From the NCBI GenBank assembly GCA_903903635.1, contig CAIUZK010000221.1, forward strand, positions 1 through 64,000: a DNA stretch of 64,000 nucleotides, in the 5' to 3' direction. Below, piece after piece: positions 15,393-25,943 of the stretch (the first letter of the stretch is position 1; each line of letters starts with the position of its first letter). Below the pieces are notes generated by a model, which was given only the letters and a program-made list of their open reading frames with translations, had not been told where the DNA came from and did no database searches. Source of the DNA: an uncultured Bacteroidota bacterium (GTDB lineage: Bacteria > Bacteroidota > Bacteroidia > Chitinophagales > Chitinophagaceae). A program made the position numbers and the translations under genes.

Positions 15393-16064
15393 TCAGGTAA
15401 GATTAGTCCTTGATGCATCTATGTGCTCAATACCGCTTTTTATGGCGTATACCGCAAGTCCAACCCTTGTTTTAAGCCCAAGTTTTTCGAACAGGGCATC
15501 GCGGTATCCCTCTACCGTTCGACTGCTGCAGATCATCTTTTCTGCAATTTCGCGGTAGGATAACTCCTTGGAACAATAGCGCAGGAACTCCAGTTCTCTT
15601 TCGGTAAAAGTGATATTTACAGGACTGTGAACTTTTTCATCGCCCATATTCATAAATATCTTGCTGGCTGCCCAGTCGGGAAAGTAATGCCCCCTGGAGG
15701 TGAGTTCATCGAGGGCAACCTGCAAATGCTCCGGACGATTGTTTTTAAGCAGGTAACCCTTGGCTCCGGCCTTTACCATTCTTATCAGCGATACATCGTC
15801 ATTCTGCATAGATAGGGCAATAATCAGAACCTCCGGGTGGTTTTTCTTGATCCATTGGGCGGTTGCAAATCCATCCATAACAGGCATGGCAATATCCAGC
15901 AGCACTATATCAGGAATATTTTTTGCTGTCTGGAATTTTTCGATGAGCGCCTTGCCGTGTTCTACCGTATAGAGCACCGAATAATTTGGGAAGTTGTTGA
16001 TGACATTAGCCAATGCCATCGAAACCATATTGTGATCATCAACTATTACCAGGCTGTAATTCAT
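15393..16064 (-). CDS. LuxR/NarL-type response regulator
   Basis: Output protein of a two-component system, a DNA-binding regulator switched by phosphorylation. Receiver domain (1-120): acidic pair DD9-10, phospho-acceptor Asp57 in VLLDIAMPVMDG, Ser84 and Lys107 (KGYLLKN). LuxR-type helix-turn-helix (about 150-215): FTERELEFLRYCSKELSYREIAEKM and SSRTVEGYRDALFEKLGL. It begins 1 bp after the end of the histidine kinase gene, so they are translated together. Its targets are unknown; NarL-type regulators bind short dyads, and two such dyads lie upstream of this operon (18490-18505 and 18895-18910). That link is an inference. Confidence 0.93.
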   Translation of the reverse strand: MNYSLVIVDDHNMVSMALANVINNFPNYSVLYTVEHGKALIEKFQTAKNIPDIVLLDIAMPVMDGFATAQWIKKNHPEVLIIALSMQNDDVSLIRMVKAGAKGYLLKNNRPEHLQVALDELTSRGHYFPDWAASKIFMNMGDEKVHSPVNITFTERELEFLRYCSKELSYREIAEKMICSSRTVEGYRDALFEKLGLKTRVGLAVYAIKSGIEHIDASRTNLT

Positions 16065-16065
16065 G

Positions 16066-16869
16066 CTACGAGAAATTTAATTTTGATGCAGGAATTAAAA
16101 TATCGAGCGAAGTGCCCGTATTAATAACGCTGTTGAATGTAAAATCGGCGCCTATCATCTCGGCTCTTTTTTTCATGTTGCTGAGGCCTATGCCATGGTC
16201 GGGTATCTTACTATAAGCTTGCATATCGAAACCTGCGCCATCGTCGTGCAGATGTATAGCCAGGCCAATGGGCTGATAGTTGAACTGCAGCACTATGTTC
16301 CTGCACCCGGCATGTTTAAGGCTGTTTTGCATAAACTCCTGTACAATGCGCAGAATGAAATTCTTGGTGATGTTGGAGAGCATAAAATCCAGTTCATTAT
16401 ACTCCATGGTCACATTGCACACATTCAGAGCATTGATGCGCTCAATATCGTTTTTAACCTGATCTGCCAGGTCGGCCATTTCAGCTTTTTCATCGGTCAG
16501 GTTTCGGGAGAGGCTGCGCAATTCGGCCAGTGACCGATCTATGATCTTGCCAATATCCGATACCCTGTCGTTCTGGCTGGGGCATACGTTATCATAGGCC
16601 ATCTGGTAGGCCGAGATAGAAGCAACAGTAAGCAACTGCCCTACATTATCATGTATCTCCCGCCCTATATCCTGCATAGTTTGCTGCTGTATCTCCAGTT
16701 TTGAGTTAAGCAGATCCTGTACATGCTGTTCGCGCAGCAATGCCTTTTCCCTTTCACTGATCAACTTGCGCTGATGGTACTTTAGAAAGAATACGATTAT
16801 TCCAACAATAAATACCAGCAGTATCAGGCTGATGATGACTGTGAAGATTTTAAATTCGGTTTCCCCCAT
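16066..16869 (-). CDS. Sensor histidine kinase (HisKA_3 type) without sensory domain
   Basis: NarX/DesK-like kinase. From ATG 16869 it has 267 residues; the longer frame from 16905 needs TTG. A single membrane segment (IISLILLVFIVGIIVFFL) lies at the N-terminus with almost nothing before it, then a coiled-coil linker and the HisKA_3 box REIHDNVGQLL with the phospho-accepting His at about 73. The ATPase domain follows (EFMQNSLKHAGCRNIVLQF, DDGAGFD, HGIGLSNMKKRAEMIGA). There is no periplasmic or cytosolic input domain, so the signal must come from a partner, most likely the 7-TM protein whose gene overlaps this one by 46 bp. The regulator gene follows at once. Confidence 0.92.
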   Translation of the reverse strand: MGETEFKIFTVIISLILLVFIVGIIVFFLKYHQRKLISEREKALLREQHVQDLLNSKLEIQQQTMQDIGREIHDNVGQLLTVASISAYQMAYDNVCPSQNDRVSDIGKIIDRSLAELRSLSRNLTDEKAEMADLADQVKNDIERINALNVCNVTMEYNELDFMLSNITKNFILRIVQEFMQNSLKHAGCRNIVLQFNYQPIGLAIHLHDDGAGFDMQAYSKIPDHGIGLSNMKKRAEMIGADFTFNSVINTGTSLDILIPASKLNFS

Positions 16870-17507
16870 ATAAAACTGAATGTAAACATAAGGTACATAA
16901 AGCAATCCAATGCGTTTGTAATATAGTAGTAAATTTCATGTAAATTATGATATTTAGCTATAAAAGTATTTCTTAGTCCATAATACGGAAAGCTACCGAG
17001 GAAATACACTAATAAACCAACGCAAATCCAGAACATCATGTTTTTCTGAAAGGTTAGGACTTCATCGTTATTGATTAATTGTATAAAGAAAAGCAGGATA
17101 AGTATTAATAATAAAAGATTGCCAATACTATAAGAGATAGAGTCAAAAAAGAACTGATGTTTTGAAAAATAAAAGACATCTGCCATTAGACTAATAAAAT
17201 ATATTCCCATGCATAGTATCGGCAATCCTTTATATTCGCTTTTCTCAAAATTTTTATGGAATAAGCAGAAAAAAAACAGGAATTCTTCTGGTATTACAAA
17301 ATAATTATAATACTTGGTATTGTTAATTCCTAAGCTATCAATAATTGGTCCTGAAAAGTCAGCAAGAAATATGTATATTAGGTAAATTGATAGCCATTTA
17401 AAGTAATTGTTTTTTACTTTTTTCCAATAAATAAGCCCCGCAAAAGCTGCTATTGCTTCAAAAGCATCTAGTATTGCTACAGGCGTACTTATTGGAAGTG
17501 GCATCAT
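16824..17507 (-). CDS. Seven-segment integral membrane protein, probable sensor subunit
   Basis: 227 residues with seven hydrophobic segments, for example LSIYLIYIFLADFSGPII, PILCMGIYFISLMADVFYF, SIGNLLLLILILLFFIQLI and MMFWICVGLLVYFLGSFPYYG. I know no named family. It overlaps the start of the kinase gene by 46 bp and follows the exported-protein gene by 9 bp, so the four genes form one operon. Because the kinase lacks its own sensory domain, this protein is the obvious candidate for the membrane receptor. The two upstream genes (this one and 17517-18305) are visibly more AT-rich than the kinase and regulator genes, which suggests a different history. Confidence 0.7.
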   Translation of the reverse strand: MMPLPISTPVAILDAFEAIAAFAGLIYWKKVKNNYFKWLSIYLIYIFLADFSGPIIDSLGINNTKYYNYFVIPEEFLFFFCLFHKNFEKSEYKGLPILCMGIYFISLMADVFYFSKHQFFFDSISYSIGNLLLLILILLFFIQLINNDEVLTFQKNMMFWICVGLLVYFLGSFPYYGLRNTFIAKYHNLHEIYYYITNALDCFMYLMFTFSFIWGKPNLKSSQSSSA

Positions 17508-17516
17508 AATAATATG

Positions 17517-18305
17517 CTAATACGGTTTGCGATTAGGTCCTTGTAATGAGGCAAGAGGGTCCACATTGTCATTAACAAAATCGACAAATTTCATAAAAGT
17601 GGCCCCACTATTATTCCAATCATCCGTAAATCTATATGGAGGAGGGATCAATCCACCATGATTTCTGGCATTTACTGATGTTGTTGGAGGTAATGCACAT
17701 ATCGGAGTTAGTAAATCAAAAACTGATTTAAAACTACAGTTTGATCCATAAAATGAATATGGATCAAAATCAACATCATGTAAACCATTATCATATGTTG
17801 GGATCATCAATAATGTATGCATGCCTGCATATTGACCATCCGTAATTCCATAATTTATATGTAGTGAATCTGCAGATAAAGGGTATTCTGCATAGTAAAT
17901 TCTTATACCTAACTTCAATGGATGATCGCATGATGTATCTTTAATGCATGTAAGTGATTCAATAGTATTGATGAACTGTTTAAGTGTATCCAAATTAAAC
18001 CATGCCGATCTAGCGTCATTAACTACCGATGGATCATCAGGAGAAGTGGTTGCCATGGCATCAGAACTTTTAAATGGCTCACAATAATTATTTATGATTT
18101 TCCAATGATTCATCCGATAATTACTAACCATCTGATAAGCAATGCGTGCATTAAACTGCGGAGATGGTGTACAAACTAAACTATAGCAATTGCCTGCACA
18201 TGGAGTAGGGGGACATGGAGTGCTACCACATCCCCAGAATAAAACTGTTAAAGTCAAAAAATTTGTTACTAGTAACACTGCCGTTAAACCGGATAGTCGT
18301 TTCAT
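17517..18305 (-). CDS. Exported hypothetical protein, first gene of the signalling operon
   Basis: 262 residues, exported. The N-terminal hydrophobic stretch ends in LFWGCGST, so it may be a lipoprotein anchored at Cys26, although Phe-Trp-Gly is a poor lipobox. A Cys/Pro-rich segment (TPCPPTPCAGNCYSLVC) follows. The mature part has AYQMVSNYRMNHWKIIN, LKLGIRIYYAEYPL, MHTLLMIPTYDNGLHDVDFDPYSFYGSNC and ARNHGGLIPP. No enzyme motif recognised. Its place at the head of a 7-TM / kinase / regulator operon suggests a periplasmic or surface ligand-binding part of the sensor, or the molecule being monitored. A weak -7 box (TACTTTAG on the minus strand, 18344-18351) lies upstream. Confidence 0.65.
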   Translation of the reverse strand: MKRLSGLTAVLLVTNFLTLTVLFWGCGSTPCPPTPCAGNCYSLVCTPSPQFNARIAYQMVSNYRMNHWKIINNYCEPFKSSDAMATTSPDDPSVVNDARSAWFNLDTLKQFINTIESLTCIKDTSCDHPLKLGIRIYYAEYPLSADSLHINYGITDGQYAGMHTLLMIPTYDNGLHDVDFDPYSFYGSNCSFKSVFDLLTPICALPPTTSVNARNHGGLIPPPYRFTDDWNNSGATFMKFVDFVNDNVDPLASLQGPNRKPY

Positions 18306-18468
18306 TTTTAGTTGTTTTTAGTTGTTAACAATGATTTCCTTCACTAAAGTATAAATAGATTTGAACTTCTTTTAGTATGAAACGTCTTTTATTTTACAAT
18401 TAGTAATAATAAATAGCTGCAATCCGCATCATCATTGAAAACCGCTGATTTTCGGAAGAAATCAAATT

Positions 18469-18522
18469 CCGTTAAATAGCGGTTACGGTACCGTTAATCA
18501 ACGGTATTTCAGGCACCGTTAA
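18469..18522. promoter_or_regulatory. dyad cluster A (ACCGTT-N4-AACGGT)
   Basis: A perfect dyad taccgtt-aatc-aacggta at 18489-18506, flanked by the half-sites ccgttaa (18469-18475) and accgttaa (18515-18522) and by an inverted form cggttacgg. The spacing and repetition look like an operator for a dimeric regulator. Confidence 0.55.
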
Positions 18523-18872: not shown

Positions 18873-18928
18873 ACCGCTTAACGACGGTATAAAAACCGTT
18901 AAACAACGGTAGAAAAATTACCGTCGGT
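18873..18928. promoter_or_regulatory. dyad cluster B (ACCGTT-N4-AACGGT)
   Basis: A second dyad accgtt-aaac-aacggt at 18895-18910, with accgcttaacg (18873-18883) before it and taccgtcggt (18919-18928) after it. It lies about 300 bp before the giant adhesin gene and 405 bp from cluster A. Confidence 0.55.
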
Positions 18929-19227: not shown

Positions 19228-22200
19228 ATGAAAAACATTATTTTATTACTTGTGTTTTACTTAAGCGCACTGAGCGCTTATGCTCTACCACCCACAACAA
19301 TATATGGTCCGACTTCGGTATGCGTCGGATCGACGATTACCTTGTCCGACAGTACAACGGGTGGTACCTGGGCAAGCAACAATGTAGCTATAGCTACAAT
19401 CGGATCCAGTTCAGGATTAGTAACCGGGATCTCGGCAGGTGTTGATTTTATCACCTATAATTTTTCAGGTGGTGGTTTCGTGACTTATCCGGTTACAGTA
19501 TACGCCACTCCGGCTGCAATCACCGGGCCTTCAGTGGTATGTACCGGATCTGCAATTACGTTGTTGGATATATCAGCCGGCAGCACATGGAGCAGTAGTA
19601 ATTCTGCCTGTGCAAGTGTAAGCCCAACAGGAGTAGTGACGGGGGTATCGGCGCCGTGTGTGGCCACTATCAGTTATGGCAATGCTGCATGTGGGTACAC
19701 GGTACATCCTGTAACTGTTAATGCAACACCGGCTGCAATTACCGGCACTATGAATGTTTGCCTGGGTTACACAACAACGCTGTCTGATGCTACTGCAGGT
19801 GGTACCTGGAGCAGCAGTAATCCTGCATGTGTTACTGTTAACGCCTCAACCGGTGTCTGTACAGGCGTTTCAGCTCCCTGCTGCGCTAATATTACTTATA
19901 CATTGCCCACGGGTTGTTACAGTACTGCTACTGTATGTGTTTATGCATTACCTGCAGCTATTGCCGGTACCTTGGTCATTTGCCAGGGATCAACGTCTAC
20001 ACTGACATGCACTCCCGGTGGTGGTGTATGGAGCGGAGGTAGCCCCTGTGTTTCCATAAATGCTGCAACAGGTGTTGTTTCAGGGCTTACAGCACCCTGC
20101 ACCGGCACAGTAACCTACACATTATCTACAGGTTGCTATACTACAGCAACTGTAACTGTAAATCCTTTACCGCCTGCATGTATTGTTTCCGGTGGCGGTG
20201 GTTATTGTGTTGGTAGCCCATGCCCTCATGTGTTGCTAAACTGTAGCCAGTCTGGCATCAGTTACCAACTATATAAAAATGGCATTGCAACAACAACTAT
20301 TAATCCAGGCACTGGTTCAGCCATTGATTTTGGACCACAGTGTGCTGCCGGTACTTATACTATTGTAGCAACTGACCCTACAACTCTTTGCACCCGCACC
20401 ATGACCGGAAGTGCAACCGTAACCGTATGGCCATTACCACCGGCATGCACCTTAACCGGTGGTGGCATTTGCTGTGCCGGATCTACCGGAGTACCTATCG
20501 GCTTAAGTTGCTCTTCACTTGGCATTAATTACCAGTTGTATTGCGGTACAACACCGGTAGGATCACCGGTAGCTGGTACAGGCGCGGCCATCAGCTTCGG
20601 TCTTTTCTGTACACCTTGCACCTACACTGTAGTAGCAACTGATGCTACAACAGGCTGTACCAATACCATGACAGGCAGCGTTACTGTTACTGTAGCGCCA
20701 CTGCCCACTGTTTTTAATGTATCAGGTGGCGGCAGTTATTGCGATAGTTCTTCAGGTTGCCCACATGTGCAGTTAAACGGTTCTCAATTGGGTGTCACTT
20801 ACAAAATATATTGTGGCACTACCCTGATGGGTACAATGCCGGGTACGGGTTCCGCTTTGGATTTTGGGCCAAGATGCGTTTCATGTACCTATACCATTGT
20901 TGCAACTGATAATACTACAGGTTGCACCAATAATATGCTGGGAAGTGCAACTGTATCAATTACAGCGCCACCTGCGGCAATATCAGGCACAACTACAATT
21001 GTATGCCCTGCTACAACCACAACACTGGCTGATGCAACACCAGGCGGCTCATGGAGCAGCAGTAATGCTGCGTGTGCAACTGTAAGCCCCGCTGGCGTAG
21101 TTACAATGGGAACTGCAGGACCATGTACGGCTGTAATTACCTATATGATGGCCCCCGGATGTTATGCAACAGTATCGGTAAGTGTACCGGCGCCTTGCAC
21201 CCGTCCGAGAGATACCACCTCGTGTTGTATAGATTCAATTGCAGTTAATACAGGATACGACCCAGTTACAAACTCAGCGTTAGCACCTGGCACGAATTGT
21301 AATGCTCCGGTTCGGGATCCCAAATGGGTTGTTAGTTCCGAAACTCCTGATATCGCTGCTGGCTTGCCTGGCTATTCCTGTCCATTCGGTTCTACTGTAG
21401 GTATATTAGAAGTGCCGGCCGGATTGGTTCAGGGTATTAATAGTGCAGATGTTATAGACAGTAGCGGCAACCCTTGTTGGATTGCAACCGCCACCGGTCA
21501 TCCTGCTAAATGGATAAGCTGTGTTAATAGTTCCGCATTTAATACGATTCCAGGTAGTACCTGTCGTATGGTTATGACGAGGCCTTTCACGATGTGCAAA
21601 GGAGACACTGTAACTATTAATCTGAATATATCATACGATAACTATATATATACGGTAAATATTGATGGGGGGGCTAACTTTTTTACTCCTACATATACCG
21701 GAGGTTTTGCTATTTGCTCCACTGCACAAGCATATTCTCCGGCTTCAATAACCCTGTATTTATCAGCTGGCATCCACTATATAAATGTTGATGTTCTTAA
21801 TTATACTCCTGGCGGTGGTATGACGGACAACTCTGCTGGATTGAAAGCATGGGGTTTCGTTAAATCTGTTCATGATTCAGGTTCATTAGTTAATCAGACC
21901 AGGCCTGTTCCATGTTGTTGCTACGGTTGTGAAATTACCGGAACTAAACATATCTGCGTAGGCGGTACTACAACGTTAAGCAGTTGCAGTGGTGGTTGCA
22001 CCTGGAGCAGCAATAATACGGCTATCGCTACAGTTAATTCCTGTACAGGAGTTGTAACCGGCGTAGCAGGTGGTACTGCTATTATTACGCATGTATCTGA
22101 TATAGGTTGCGTTACTACCATTACCATTACAGTGGAAGCGGCTCCAACAGCATGTACAGTGACCGGTGGCGGTTCTTATTGCCCTGGCCCATGTTTATCA

Positions 22201-24615
22201 TGTCCTCATGTTGGTCTTAGTTGCTCACAGGTTGGTGTAAACTACCAATTGTATTGCGGCTCTACTGCAGTACCTCCGGTATTGGCAGGTACAGGCGGTT
22301 CGCTTGATTTCGGTCCTCAATGCGGTCCTTGTACTTATACAATCAAGGCGACCAATGACGAAATAGGTTGCACAAGCAATATGACAGGTTCGGTGACTTC
22401 TACACCTCTTCCGGCTTGTGTTATCAGCGGCCCAACTACGGTATGCGTGGGTAACAATATCACATTATCAAGCAGTTGCACCGCATCATGCCCATGGAGC
22501 AGCGGCAGTACTTCAATTGCTACAGTGGGTTGTACAGGTATAGTTCATGGTGTGAGCGCAGGTATGGTAAATATTACCTACACTTCAGTTAACGGTTGTA
22601 TTTCGGTATATACGGTTACCGTAACAGGCACATGTCCTATTACAGGTACGCTTACTGTATGCGTAGGCACTACAACTACCTTGAGTGCGGCACCTTGTAC
22701 CGGTGGTATATGGTCGAGCAGCAATCCTGCGTGTGTTACTGTTGGAGCAGCCACAGGTGTTTGTACCGGTATTTCAGCACCATGTTGCGCTACAATATCT
22801 TATACAAATACATCAGGCTGTATCAGCACAACTACTGTATGCGTACTGACCGCCCCTGCAACTCCTACGGTTACGCCACCTACCAGTATATGCCTGCCAG
22901 GCAGTACTGCACTTACAGGTTCGGCCGTTCCTGCCGGAAGTTTCTCTTCATGGATATTAACAGGTACTACATACGGCTCATTAAGTTGTACATCTAATTG
23001 CTCAAGTACAACATTTACCGGTTCTGCCCCGGGAGTACAGACTATAACCTATATAGTTTATAATGCTTGCGGCAGCCGTTCAGCTACTACAACTGTATCT
23101 GTAAATACGTTGCCTCCTATCACAGGCGTGCATTCAGTATGCCAGGGGTTACCTGCGACTATTAGTATTACAGGTGCGCCATCCGGTACATGGACAAGCT
23201 ATCCAACGGGTATTGTATCCATCTTCCCGGCAACCAGCACTACTACTACGGTTACAGGTTTAACGCCGGGTACTACAACCCTTACTTATACCACAGCTTC
23301 AGGCTGTCCTGCAACATGGACATTTACAGTTAATCCTACACCGACAGTTACAGGTGGCTTATCATTATGCGCTGGTCTGATATATCTGAATGACCTGACC
23401 GGTTCACCAAGCCCTGGCACATGGACAGGTCCGACATCAGGCCCTGCGGTGATTGTTAGCTCTACATCGTCTACGGCGACTATTCAGACATTTTCTGCAG
23501 GTGTTTCGATGATTGTCTATACTGTTAATGCTACCGGATGTTTCAAACAGGTTAATGTTACAGTAAATGCATTGCCTGTAATCTCAGGTCCTCCAACAAT
23601 GTGTATGGGAACAACTGTATCGATGACTATATTATCATCATTTGGTACAGGTACCTGGAGTATTCTGCCAGCCAACCCACATGTTTCTATAAATACTGGT
23701 ACAGGTCTAATAACTACAACTGGTACAATAACAACTCCTAATTACATAAATGTATATTATACTGATGCAAATGGATGCAGGAGTCTTGGCCATCCTATAA
23801 CAGTTTATCCGCAACCTGTCATAAACGGAGCATCTACCATATGCATAAGTTCAACAAGTAGCGTACCGGAGACTAATTCTTTAGGTGGAACAGGTGTTTG
23901 GTCATTACTTCCAGCTACGCCTTTTGCATCAAATACTCCAATTCTTGGTTCTTCAACCAATGTCAGCGGTTTAAGTCCAGGATACGTAACATTGAAATTT
24001 GTTGCCAGTCCTTCAGGTTGTATAGCATATAAAACACTTCATGTACTTGGCCTGCCTAATCCGGGTACGCTTACAGTAACACCAGGCTCATTCTGTGTAG
24101 GGGCATTAGGAGTTACAGTGAATATGGGCGGAGCTGATTTTGGTGGAAGCTGGCTTTCATCCTGCTCATTTGTTTTGATACCTACTTATACAGGTACAGC
24201 GCCTATAGTTTCAACTTCCTCATGGGGTGGCATTCCGCCAACTGAAGGTTGCGGTATCATCTATACAGTTGCAAATGCCTGTGGTACAAGAGCCTCCAGC
24301 ACTGCGTTTATTGTAGATGCTTGCGGCCATAAAGAAGGTCGTGACGGAGGGGATGGCGTTTCTGAAGTCATAATCGGAGCTCAGTTAAAAGTTTTTCCAA
24401 ATCCTAACCAGGGAACTTTTACAGTAAACCTGCAGAGTGATAAAGATGAAGCCGCATTTGTAAAGGTGGCAAATATCGTAGGTGAAACTGTTTCGACTTT
24501 CCAGACGGTTACGAATAAGGAAAACAGTGTGCTGGTAGAAAAAGCAGCGGGAATTTACCTGATTACAGTTACAACACCAAGTGGCATCTATACAGCCAAG
24601 GTTGTTGTGGAATAA
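19228..24615 (+). CDS. Giant cysteine-rich Ig-like repeat adhesin, T9SS cargo
   Basis: 1795 residues, exported and probably surface-bound. Signal peptide MKNIILLLVFYLSALSAYA. Two kinds of repeat alternate. The first is a bacterial Ig-like (Big2-type) unit of about 75-80 residues: CVGSTITLSDSTTGGTW, ATVNSCTGVVTGV, TITYT. The second, of about 85, starts GGGSYC and contains NYQLYCG, GTG, FGPQC, TYTIVATD and MTGSVTVT. Many repeats carry Cys, often paired at equivalent positions, which is unusual for this fold and suggests disulfide stitching. A non-repetitive domain (about 654-898) interrupts the array. The T9SS sorting domain is at the C-terminus (VFPNPNQGTFTVNLQSD onward). Likely role: adhesion, matrix or gliding. 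A shorter paralogue follows directly; another lies at 45554. Confidence 0.9.
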   Translation: MKNIILLLVFYLSALSAYALPPTTIYGPTSVCVGSTITLSDSTTGGTWASNNVAIATIGSSSGLVTGISAGVDFITYNFSGGGFVTYPVTVYATPAAITGPSVVCTGSAITLLDISAGSTWSSSNSACASVSPTGVVTGVSAPCVATISYGNAACGYTVHPVTVNATPAAITGTMNVCLGYTTTLSDATAGGTWSSSNPACVTVNASTGVCTGVSAPCCANITYTLPTGCYSTATVCVYALPAAIAGTLVICQGSTSTLTCTPGGGVWSGGSPCVSINAATGVVSGLTAPCTGTVTYTLSTGCYTTATVTVNPLPPACIVSGGGGYCVGSPCPHVLLNCSQSGISYQLYKNGIATTTINPGTGSAIDFGPQCAAGTYTIVATDPTTLCTRTMTGSATVTVWPLPPACTLTGGGICCAGSTGVPIGLSCSSLGINYQLYCGTTPVGSPVAGTGAAISFGLFCTPCTYTVVATDATTGCTNTMTGSVTVTVAPLPTVFNVSGGGSYCDSSSGCPHVQLNGSQLGVTYKIYCGTTLMGTMPGTGSALDFGPRCVSCTYTIVATDNTTGCTNNMLGSATVSITAPPAAISGTTTIVCPATTTTLADATPGGSWSSSNAACATVSPAGVVTMGTAGPCTAVITYMMAPGCYATVSVSVPAPCTRPRDTTSCCIDSIAVNTGYDPVTNSALAPGTNCNAPVRDPKWVVSSETPDIAAGLPGYSCPFGSTVGILEVPAGLVQGINSADVIDSSGNPCWIATATGHPAKWISCVNSSAFNTIPGSTCRMVMTRPFTMCKGDTVTINLNISYDNYIYTVNIDGGANFFTPTYTGGFAICSTAQAYSPASITLYLSAGIHYINVDVLNYTPGGGMTDNSAGLKAWGFVKSVHDSGSLVNQTRPVPCCCYGCEITGTKHICVGGTTTLSSCSGGCTWSSNNTAIATVNSCTGVVTGVAGGTAIITHVSDIGCVTTITITVEAAPTACTVTGGGSYCPGPCLSCPHVGLSCSQVGVNYQLYCGSTAVPPVLAGTGGSLDFGPQCGPCTYTIKATNDEIGCTSNMTGSVTSTPLPACVISGPTTVCVGNNITLSSSCTASCPWSSGSTSIATVGCTGIVHGVSAGMVNITYTSVNGCISVYTVTVTGTCPITGTLTVCVGTTTTLSAAPCTGGIWSSSNPACVTVGAATGVCTGISAPCCATISYTNTSGCISTTTVCVLTAPATPTVTPPTSICLPGSTALTGSAVPAGSFSSWILTGTTYGSLSCTSNCSSTTFTGSAPGVQTITYIVYNACGSRSATTTVSVNTLPPITGVHSVCQGLPATISITGAPSGTWTSYPTGIVSIFPATSTTTTVTGLTPGTTTLTYTTASGCPATWTFTVNPTPTVTGGLSLCAGLIYLNDLTGSPSPGTWTGPTSGPAVIVSSTSSTATIQTFSAGVSMIVYTVNATGCFKQVNVTVNALPVISGPPTMCMGTTVSMTILSSFGTGTWSILPANPHVSINTGTGLITTTGTITTPNYINVYYTDANGCRSLGHPITVYPQPVINGASTICISSTSSVPETNSLGGTGVWSLLPATPFASNTPILGSSTNVSGLSPGYVTLKFVASPSGCIAYKTLHVLGLPNPGTLTVTPGSFCVGALGVTVNMGGADFGGSWLSSCSFVLIPTYTGTAPIVSTSSWGGIPPTEGCGIIYTVANACGTRASSTAFIVDACGHKEGRDGGDGVSEVIIGAQLKVFPNPNQGTFTVNLQSDKDEAAFVKVANIVGETVSTFQTVTNKENSVLVEKAAGIYLITVTTPSGIYTAKVVVE

Positions 24616-24627
24616 TACCATTTGCCG

Positions 24628-24660
24628 GTGGCAGTTGAGGGGTTAACCTTCAATTGCCAC
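24628..24660 (+). terminator. stem-loop after the giant adhesin gene
   Basis: gtggcagttga (24628-24638) pairs with tcaattgccac (24650-24660) with one G-U pair. No T-run follows, so it is more likely a partial terminator or an mRNA-stabilising stem that sets the level of the next gene. Confidence 0.5.
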
Positions 24661-24719
24661 TGCAAAATGGCAATATCAGGTCTTGTAAAATCATTATTTA
24701 AACAAAAAAAATCATAACA

Positions 24720-25943
24720 ATGAAAAAGTATATTTTATTGATCTCGTTTATGTCGTGTGCCATGAATCTTTTTGCACAAACGATAACAGGTGTTACTGAT
24801 GTCTGTGTAGGCTCCGTGACCACACTGGCTAATGATTCCCTGGGTGGTACATGGTCCAGCGCTTCGACCGCGATAGCAACTATCGGAACCACTGGTAATG
24901 TTACCGGAGTTTCGGCCGGAACTTCTGTAATAACCTACTTTTATTCAGGTGGAGGGTATATTACAGCAACAGTAACAGTTAACCCGATTCCTGCAGCTAT
25001 ATCAGGGAGCGGAAGTGTTTGCCAGGGCCAAAATACCTTGTATTCAGATGTAACAACAGGAGGCTCATGGAGTAGCAGTAATAACCTTGTTGCTATGGTG
25101 GATGCTGTTACCGGAGTTGTTACCGGGGTGTCAATTGATACTGCAACCATATACTATACATTACTTACAGGTTGTTACAGATCTGCAGGTATTATTATTA
25201 ACGAAATGCCGGTGCCAATTACAGGGTCTGCTAATTTTTGTGTTGGAGTTACCGATTCATTGTATGAATCAGGAGGCGGTACCTGGACTACTGCTTCAAC
25301 AGGCATTATTTCTTTGGGCGCAACTGCCGGTAATATTACTGGGCTTGCCGCTGGTACTGCTGTAGTTACCTATACTTTGTCTACAGGTTGTGCTACAACA
25401 ATGGCGATTACAGTTAATCCTTTACCTGTAGCCGGAACCATTACGGCAAGCTCATTTGTTTGTCTTGGTAGTACTACAACCTGCGCAAGCGACAAATGTT
25501 GCGGTGTTTGGAGCAGCAGTAATTCTGCAATTGCCACAATAAACCCGACAAGTGGAGTAGCTACCGGAGTTGGTGCGGGCATTATTACAATCAATTATGC
25601 AGTTACAAATTATTGTGGCACTGCAAATGCTATATCCGCACTTCAGGTTCTTTCTGTTGATGCATGCAACAAACTCAGTGTGGATAAGACAAAATTATTG
25701 CAAACCGAACTGGCAATCGTTCCAAATCCGGCCACTGATGGCCATTTTACAGTTACTTTAAATTCGGGTAAAGAGGAGCAGGCTACAGTAACCATCACCA
25801 CCATTACCGGTGAAAAGGTGAAAGTCTTTACAACTGCTACCAATAAAAAGAATGAAGTGAAACTGGACAGTGCCGCAGGTATGTATTTCATATCAGCCGT
25901 CACCGAAAGCGGAAAATATGAAGCAAAAGTGATATTGGAGTAA
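24720..25943 (+). CDS. Short Ig-like repeat T9SS protein, paralogue of the giant adhesin
   Basis: 407 residues. Signal peptide ends near NLFAQ. About four Big2-type units (VCVGSVTTLANDSLGGTWSS, VCQGQNTLYSDVTTGGSWSS, FCVGVTDSLYESGGGTW, VCLGSTTTCASDKCCGVWSS) are followed by a T9SS sorting domain (AIVPNPATDGHFTVTLNSG, then KVFTTATNKKNEVKLDSAAGMYFISAV). The sorting domain is nearly the same as in the 1795-aa protein, including a KKNEVKLDSAAG-like motif where that one has KENSVLVEKAAG. It starts 104 bp after the giant gene with only a stem-loop between, so the two are probably expressed together, perhaps as a long filament protein and a short cap or anchor. That division of labour is a guess. Confidence 0.88.
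   Translation: MKKYILLISFMSCAMNLFAQTITGVTDVCVGSVTTLANDSLGGTWSSASTAIATIGTTGNVTGVSAGTSVITYFYSGGGYITATVTVNPIPAAISGSGSVCQGQNTLYSDVTTGGSWSSSNNLVAMVDAVTGVVTGVSIDTATIYYTLLTGCYRSAGIIINEMPVPITGSANFCVGVTDSLYESGGGTWTTASTGIISLGATAGNITGLAAGTAVVTYTLSTGCATTMAITVNPLPVAGTITASSFVCLGSTTTCASDKCCGVWSSSNSAIATINPTSGVATGVGAGIITINYAVTNYCGTANAISALQVLSVDACNKLSVDKTKLLQTELAIVPNPATDGHFTVTLNSGKEEQATVTITTITGEKVKVFTTATNKKNEVKLDSAAGMYFISAVTESGKYEAKVILE

Follow-up and report, generated by a model that had tools for sequence, protein, structure and literature searches.

A conserved four-gene operon of Bacteroidota that may encode a split receptor kinase

The DNA analyzed here, hereafter the window, is a stretch of 64,000 nucleotides from an uncultured Chitinophagaceae bacterium (assembly GCA_903903635.1, contig CAIUZK010000221.1, positions 1 to 64,000). 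It contains four genes, EXP, TM7, HK, and RR, that encode a variable first protein, a seven-helix membrane protein, a histidine kinase, and a response regulator, respectively. They form a real and widely conserved operon that apparently represents an undescribed variant of the accessory-protein two-component systems; no description of an EXP-TM7-HK-RR operon was found in the available excerpts of the open-licence PMC literature. The operon includes the following genes, as read from the open reading frames (ORFs) of the window:

17517..18305, minus strand: EXP, the first gene, 262 amino acids (aa)
16824..17507, minus strand: TM7, 227-aa seven-helix membrane protein, candidate receptor subunit
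16066..16869 counted from the ATG, minus strand: HK, HisKA_3/HATPase_c histidine kinase
15393..16064, minus strand: RR, response regulator with a GerE (LuxR-type) DNA-binding domain

The original prediction, made from the window sequence alone, described four packed genes at 15393-18305. Our recount of coordinates and spacing agrees with it: all genes are on the minus strand, EXP and TM7 are separated by 9 base pairs (bp), TM7 and HK overlap by 46 bp, and HK and RR are separated by 1 bp.

The last two genes encode a two-component pair. In the Pfam scan, HK matches HisKA_3 (34.0 bits; cut-off, 24) and HATPase_c (35.8 bits; cut-off, 26.4) and no further domain above the cut-off, and its only hydrophobic segment lies near the N-terminus; the initial description of a kinase with one membrane helix and no input domain is thus borne out by both the sequence and the scan. 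HK has the conserved motifs H73-D-N-x-G-Q, N182, DDGxGF, and GIGLxNM, and H73 is invariant among the aligned relatives. Since the histidine, the N-box, and the glycine motifs are kept, HK should be active; a phosphatase motif of the DxxxQ type can be seen in H-D-N-x-G-Q. The best NCBIfam match of HK is UhpB (E = 4.6e-21), and the LiaS model gives E = 1.4e-17, both far below the cut-offs. RR contains the Pfam domains Response_reg and GerE, and its phospho-acceptor D57 is invariant among the aligned relatives. By their Pfam domains and conserved histidine and aspartate, HK and RR are a HisKA_3 kinase and a NarL/FixJ (LuxR-type) regulator, respectively.

AlphaFold2 models TM7 as a bundle of seven membrane helices with a predicted local distance difference test (pLDDT) value of 93.9 and a predicted template-modeling score of 0.89. 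Its charged loops suggest, by the positive-inside rule, an outside N-terminus and an inside C-terminus. No family above the cut-off was found for TM7 in Pfam (window protein and 14 members) or NCBIfam (window protein); the five weak Pfam matches came from one member each among the 14, the best being SirB (E = 0.003). A sequence search of the PDB with TM7 and EXP gave no match at E <= 1. The nearest folds are, weakly, rhodopsins and G protein-coupled receptors (GPCRs): the best Foldseek match of the model has E = 0.27, and alignment to bacteriorhodopsin 1mgy by VIA-align gave Z = 11.9 over 202 residues at 4.0 A, the caution value of this tool for helical bundles being about 13. The retinal-binding lysine of microbial rhodopsins was not seen, as helix-7 columns have lysine in at most 8 of the 61 TM7 sequences, and no histidine column of the TM7 alignment is conserved at 60% or more. 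Because such a Z score is within reach of unrelated helical bundles and helix 7 has no conserved lysine, we describe TM7 as a predicted seven-helix bundle and do not claim homology to rhodopsins or GPCRs. Several loci have two or three successive TM7 genes ahead of one kinase (L012/L025, L015, L156, L106, and L122; here and below, L-numbers denote inspected loci, G000 is the source genome, and C-numbers after G000 are its contigs).

The EXP sequence opens with a hydrophobic segment that runs up to a lipobox-like FWGC, followed by a domain with the conserved motifs D-x-R-x-x-W, G-x-R-x-Y, T-x(4)-P-T, and N-x-G-x-x-x-P-P, in this order. Nothing above the cut-off was found for EXP in Pfam (window protein and 12 family members) or NCBIfam (window protein). 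Its AlphaFold2 model is moderate (pLDDT 68.4), and searches with this model gave no Foldseek match at E <= 0.001 and a best VIA Z of 3.0, none of them convincing. An EXP profile iterated five times, with incomplete convergence, matches 158 of the 237 genes that are upstream partners of TM7 in a redundant set (some places are counted twice). In the inspected loci, all chosen for carrying such systems, it matches 184 of 5254 ORFs; of the 26 matches outside the scored partners, 25 had already been labeled as EXP, being in cut loci or tandem copies, and one duplicates a partner gene. Profile-profile comparison, covering all of the 88 unlabeled partners (L136-L274) but 24 in smaller groups, related 32 to EXP at 97.4% probability, 5 at 90.9%, and 7 at 82.4%; another 3 reached 48.5%, and four clusters of 7, 4, 3, and 3 members showed no relation to it (<=4.9%). 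These profiles mark EXP as a superfamily that evolves rapidly, and in some systems another kind of gene seems to come first. In Aquimarina and Kordia (L082, L086, L108, L117, L121, and L135), a single kinase is preceded by EXP genes or EXP-TM7 pairs in tandem.

The gene order of the operon is kept in relatives across the phylum. Among the named loci L056-L135, which are the best 80 of 146 matches in the genome collection, 73 have EXP, TM7, HK, and RR complete and in this order, so homologs of the upstream genes do co-occur with HisKA_3/LuxR pairs, a check that the original prediction had suggested. The seven incomplete loci either begin (L064 and L081) or stop (L069, L084, and L112) at a contig end, lack an EXP match (L102), or lack an adjoining RR (L078). 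According to the record titles, the carriers are Chitinophagaceae, Flavobacteriaceae (many of them Aquimarina), and Cytophagales. A TM7 search of 60 related genomes found relatives at 25 places in 16 genomes, and by our own profiles HK adjoins TM7 in 24 of these places, the exception being L021.

In the larger family survey of 195 genomes, 15 TM7 candidates and 13 HK candidates were scored per genome, and the 150 best places were listed for each. TM7 relatives were found in 163 of the 195 family genomes, up to nine per genome among the candidates scored, and in 61 of 296 genomes of the phylum. The EXP profile found 88 places in 68 family genomes, with a listed TM7 directly downstream in 79. 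The other nine include three loci that have TM7-HK-RR on closer look (L142-L144), four that are cut by a contig end (L137 and L139-L141), L138 with a TM7 located 1.9 kb away and no kinase, and L136 with no TM7. EXP is upstream of 76 of the 150 TM7 places among the matches listed. For TM7 places without a listed EXP, we inspected 51 regions covering 52 of the 74 places, and at least one TM7 with HK directly downstream was found in 50 regions, the exception being L185. A predominance of upstream genes without the kinase, which would have spoken against a common system, was thus not observed. Kinases of the HK type without TM7, the other contrary case looked for, are rare: TM7 is upstream of 146 of the 150 best-listed HK-like kinases (71 by listing and 75 of 79 by inspection), and RR is in the expected place for 72 of the 79 inspected HK places lacking a listed TM7. 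This genomic context supports the assignment of the EXP and TM7 genes to the kinase gene.

Of the eight HisKA_3 kinases encoded by the source genome, four are short and four belong to long frames (545-1000 aa). TM7 accompanies three of the four short kinases (the window, C207, and C177); the inspected flanks of the four long frames are too short to rule out an adjoining TM7. A separate case is L199 (1498-2874), where a 458-aa kinase of the HK type has seven transmembrane (TM) stretches of its own. We rejected it as a TM7-HK fusion proving contact, since its N-terminal part does not match TM7 (hhalign probability, 0.4%); all it demonstrates is that an HK-type kinase can carry a seven-helix part.

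The divergence of the four proteins is correlated. Over 95 complete sets, Spearman correlations of distances are 0.77 for HK-RR, 0.67 for EXP-TM7, 0.65 for TM7-RR, 0.61 for TM7-HK, 0.50 for EXP-HK, and 0.46 for EXP-RR; only their ranking is informative, because all four genes share the species history. The best-correlated partner is TM7 for EXP, and HK and RR for each other, although the TM7-RR value nearly equals that of EXP-TM7. EXP and TM7 diverge fastest, with a mean identity of 22% and 26%, respectively, versus 38% for HK and 49% for RR.

The two upstream genes had also been noted as more AT-rich than the kinase pair, as if the input module had been swapped. The difference is real in the window, both in guanine-plus-cytosine (GC) content (TM7, 0.30; EXP, 0.36; HK, 0.44; RR, 0.45) and in GC content at third codon positions (GC3; 0.29, 0.24, 0.54, and 0.50, respectively). 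A swap is not needed to explain it, however. In 94 complete four-gene loci, a redundant set in which some places are counted twice, TM7 is below HK in GC in all 94 and in GC3 in 57, and thus the low GC of TM7 is mostly due to amino-acid composition. For EXP, values lower than those of HK were found in 33 of these loci for GC and in 73 for GC3. A GC3 drop like that in the window is also found in L002-L004, and it is therefore not recent in the source genome.

The first protein had been described as exported. This is true of EXP in the window, with its signal and lipobox-like end, but it does not hold in general: judging from the hydropathy of the part that precedes the domain, 97 of the 158 EXP partners are predicted to be exported or anchored (45 of them lipobox-like) and 61 lack an export signal. 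A start-choice artefact is unlikely as a general explanation of the latter, since no partner has a hydropathy between 1.2 and 1.5, although single cases may err. A tree built from 142 distinct sequences of TM7 (93 versus 49 by export state) requires 13 changes of export state, at least 5 of them forced by well-supported branches, whereas shuffled labels need 41 on average; these counts are rough, because 62 of the 139 inner branches are weak and some long branches attract. The predicted topology of TM7 is the same in groups with exported and non-exported EXP. The apparent location of the EXP domain on both sides of the membrane is the oddest result of our analysis, and we have no good mechanism for it.

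A candidate operator of the system is the palindrome ACCGTTNNNNAACGGT (ACCGTT-N4-AACGGT), which in the source genome lies ahead of the operon, its paralog, and three other gene starts. The window contains the following sites and a candidate target gene:

18490..18505, unstranded: palindrome ACCGTTAATCAACGGT, exact, candidate RR operator, 185 bp ahead of EXP
18468-18483: weaker copy of the palindrome, 2 mismatches, near the EXP-side site
18895..18910, unstranded: palindrome ACCGTTAAACAACGGT, exact, second candidate operator, 318 bp ahead of the divergent gene
18873-18888: weaker copy of the palindrome, 2 mismatches, near the divergent-gene-side site
19228..24615, plus strand: Big_2 protein (Pfam) sorted by the type IX secretion system (T9SS), 1795 aa, divergent from the operon, candidate target

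Eight ACGGT/ACCGT words lie in the 922 bp that separate EXP from the divergent gene, their densest stretch in the window. With up to 2 mismatches, the palindrome has 5 matches in the window versus 1.6 expected, and 5 were reached in 4 of 100 shuffles. The source genome contains six exact palindromes, all in gaps ahead of ORFs of at least 100 aa, versus one site for the reversed control. Besides the two sites in the window, these are located (i) 179 bp ahead of the paralogous EXP (G000:C207:22632), (ii) 78 bp ahead of the gene for a T9SS-tailed protein, after which a collagen-like protein is encoded (G000:C229:2133), (iii) 107 bp ahead of an ORF of 464+ aa without a Pfam match (G000:C212:483), and (iv) between two divergent ORFs, neither of which matches Pfam (G000:C223:76189). 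These six sites possibly constitute a small regulon; only some of the genes behind them look exported.

The palindrome co-occurs with the operon in the genus, as sampled by 35 genomes including the source. A close operon, defined in this analysis by a TM7 match at E <= 1e-30, is present in 10 genomes, all of which contain exact palindromes (62 sites), versus 6 of the 25 genomes without it (14 sites; Fisher p = 4e-5, in a test that treats the genomes as independent although the species are related). The reversed control is found in 4 of 10 and 9 of 25 genomes, respectively (p = 1). In L056-L078, the palindrome with at most one mismatch occurs within 400 bp ahead of EXP in 14 of 22 EXP loci; 16 sites fall into this interval and 1 into the remainder of the 236 kb, whereas the reversed control has 0 sites ahead of EXP and 1 elsewhere.

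A scan for promoters gave 15 sites versus 15.4 in shuffles, that is, no enrichment, and terminator-like sites numbered 7 versus 2.9. Divergently from the operon, at 19228-25943, the window encodes two neighboring proteins with Big_2 (bacterial Ig-like) domains and T9SS sorting tails. Among the 23 loci L056-L078 with inspected flanks, a relative of the divergent Big_2 protein adjoins the operon only in L058.

We interpret the operon, with moderate confidence, as an autoregulated split receptor kinase in which EXP and TM7 set HK. EXP, tethered to the cell envelope, and the inner-membrane protein TM7 would form the input unit; TM7 would contact the single TM helix of HK and set its kinase/phosphatase balance; HK would phosphorylate RR; and RR would bind ACCGTT-N4-AACGGT, thereby controlling the operon itself along with a small number of further genes, some of which probably encode exported surface proteins. 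The conserved gene order, the domain content, the correlated divergence, and the palindrome with its co-occurrence with the operon are observations. The receptor role of EXP and TM7, a possible activating rather than restraining effect on the kinase, the physical contact of EXP, TM7, and HK, the phosphotransfer, the binding of the palindrome by RR, and the targets are inferred.

Several observations weigh against the split-receptor interpretation. As 61 of the 158 EXP partners lack an export signal while TM7 keeps its orientation, an outside co-receptor cannot suit every member. TM7 occurs without an adjoining kinase in L021 (as a TM7-like C-terminal stretch of a 433-aa frame), L138, and L185. 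Conversely, four of the 150 HK-like kinases lack TM7 (L199, L203, L215, and L244), and in the source genome a short HisKA_3 kinase with a regulator has no TM7 within 6.5 kb (G000:C172:13000-19500, L303) and is a possible orphan. For the operator, the relatedness of the compared species counts on the same side, as do the six genomes that carry the palindrome without a detected close operon, the strongest exception being G024 with six sites, a fragmented genome that is 78% complete. In L056-L135, the palindrome with at most one mismatch is found in only 16 of 77 EXP loci, and hence the site belongs to one clade. Cultured carriers of operon and site include Emticicia aquatilis (L080, exact) and Lacibacter cauensis (L092, one mismatch).

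The main rival explanation is that EXP and TM7 are feedback regulators, controlled by RR and raising the phosphatase activity of HK in a SaeP/SaeQ-like manner, whereas sensing takes place elsewhere. In saePQRS, too, genes for a lipoprotein and a membrane protein come ahead of a two-component pair, and the candidate operator is ahead of EXP, so that EXP and TM7 would be self-induced. We consider this explanation unlikely, as HK has no other recognizable sensor, its two upstream partners are the fastest-diverging members, as expected of input parts, and TM7 is seldom absent beside HK-type kinases.

It is also conceivable, but quite improbable in our view, that TM7 is a transporter or an enzyme monitored by the kinase (BceS- or UhpC-like) with EXP as its accessory. 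UhpB is a kinase that senses through its membrane partner UhpC. BceS depends on its transporter (PMC8534201). TM7, however, is below all transporter and enzyme family cut-offs, its fold neighbors are, weakly, GPCRs and rhodopsins, and it has no histidine column conserved at the 60% level. Even less credit is given to a role of EXP as a ligand-like protein recognized by TM7 of the same or neighboring cells, in cell-cell or self-recognition. Such a role would agree with EXP being the most variable part and co-varying with TM7, and with the tandem duplications of EXP or EXP-TM7 ahead of one kinase in Aquimarina and Kordia, but sensors too are expected to vary, and many EXP relatives lack an export signal.

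Should the split-receptor interpretation hold, the gene adjoining many of the short "sensor-less" HisKA_3 kinases in these bacteria would encode their sensor, and the design would use one partner domain on both sides of a membrane, which is unusual. The palindrome makes the output of the system testable by a reporter. TM7 is widespread in the family and occurs across the phylum, yet neither TM7 nor EXP reaches a Pfam cut-off. A bolder and rather doubtful generalization would be phylum-wide modular receptor kinases, in which a stand-alone rhodopsin/GPCR-like TM7 serves a bare HisKA_3 kinase and is tuned by a rapidly evolving partner domain that has repeatedly moved between the outside and the cytoplasm; the copies would then share one receptor fold, some reading signals from outside and others from inside the cell.

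The layout was initially considered not assignable to a named system, and we came to the same view: we found none of the proteins that define LiaFSR, UhpABC, or 7TMR-DISM, and therefore the operon is filed under none of them. The 7TMR-DISM proteins resemble it in having a seven-helix receptor domain, but they are single polypeptides (in the host genus, open frames mostly of 690-760 aa), whereas the extracytoplasmic, TM, and signaling parts are encoded here by separate genes. TM7 has no PF07695 match, and its hhalign probability against 20 aligned 7TMR-DISM proteins is 6.0%. In UhpABC, as here, a HisKA_3 kinase works with a LuxR-type regulator, and the membrane receptor is a protein of its own. 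UhpC, a homolog of transporters, has 12 TM helices and UhpB has many, versus seven in TM7 and one in HK. A UhpC-like receptor was not found, as the TM7 model has seven helices and Pfam gave TM7 no match above the cut-off. LiaFSR of Firmicutes, with which VraTSR is grouped, combines an accessory membrane protein with a histidine kinase and a regulator; HK and RR resemble the LiaFSR and UhpABC pairs in their protein families. No LiaF family protein was found ahead of HK, both TM7 and EXP being below all Pfam and NCBIfam cut-offs, and we know of no EXP counterpart in LiaFSR. LiaF is described as a negative regulator (PMC3543457, PMC7191749).

In the QseG-QseE system, a lipoprotein directly binds and activates a histidine kinase, but QseG is an outer-membrane lipoprotein acting directly on the kinase, and the abstract mentions no 7-TM protein (PMC12691602). 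The sae operon (SaePQRS) of Staphylococcus aureus likewise has genes for a lipoprotein and a multi-TM protein alongside a two-component pair, although the EXP motif is only lipobox-like and SaeQ has four predicted helices instead of seven (PMC5083920). The sae regulator gene precedes the kinase gene, whereas it follows the kinase gene here, and the phylum is different. SaeR/SaeS are of the OmpR/HisKA type, and the pair here is of the HisKA_3/LuxR type. Activation does not need SaePQ, but induction of the phosphatase activity of SaeS does (PMC5083920); SaeS is described as an intramembrane-sensing kinase (PMC4388633). The Sae accessory proteins form a ternary complex with their kinase. By analogy, the operon is best read as working like SaePQRS, LiaFSR, or UhpABC.

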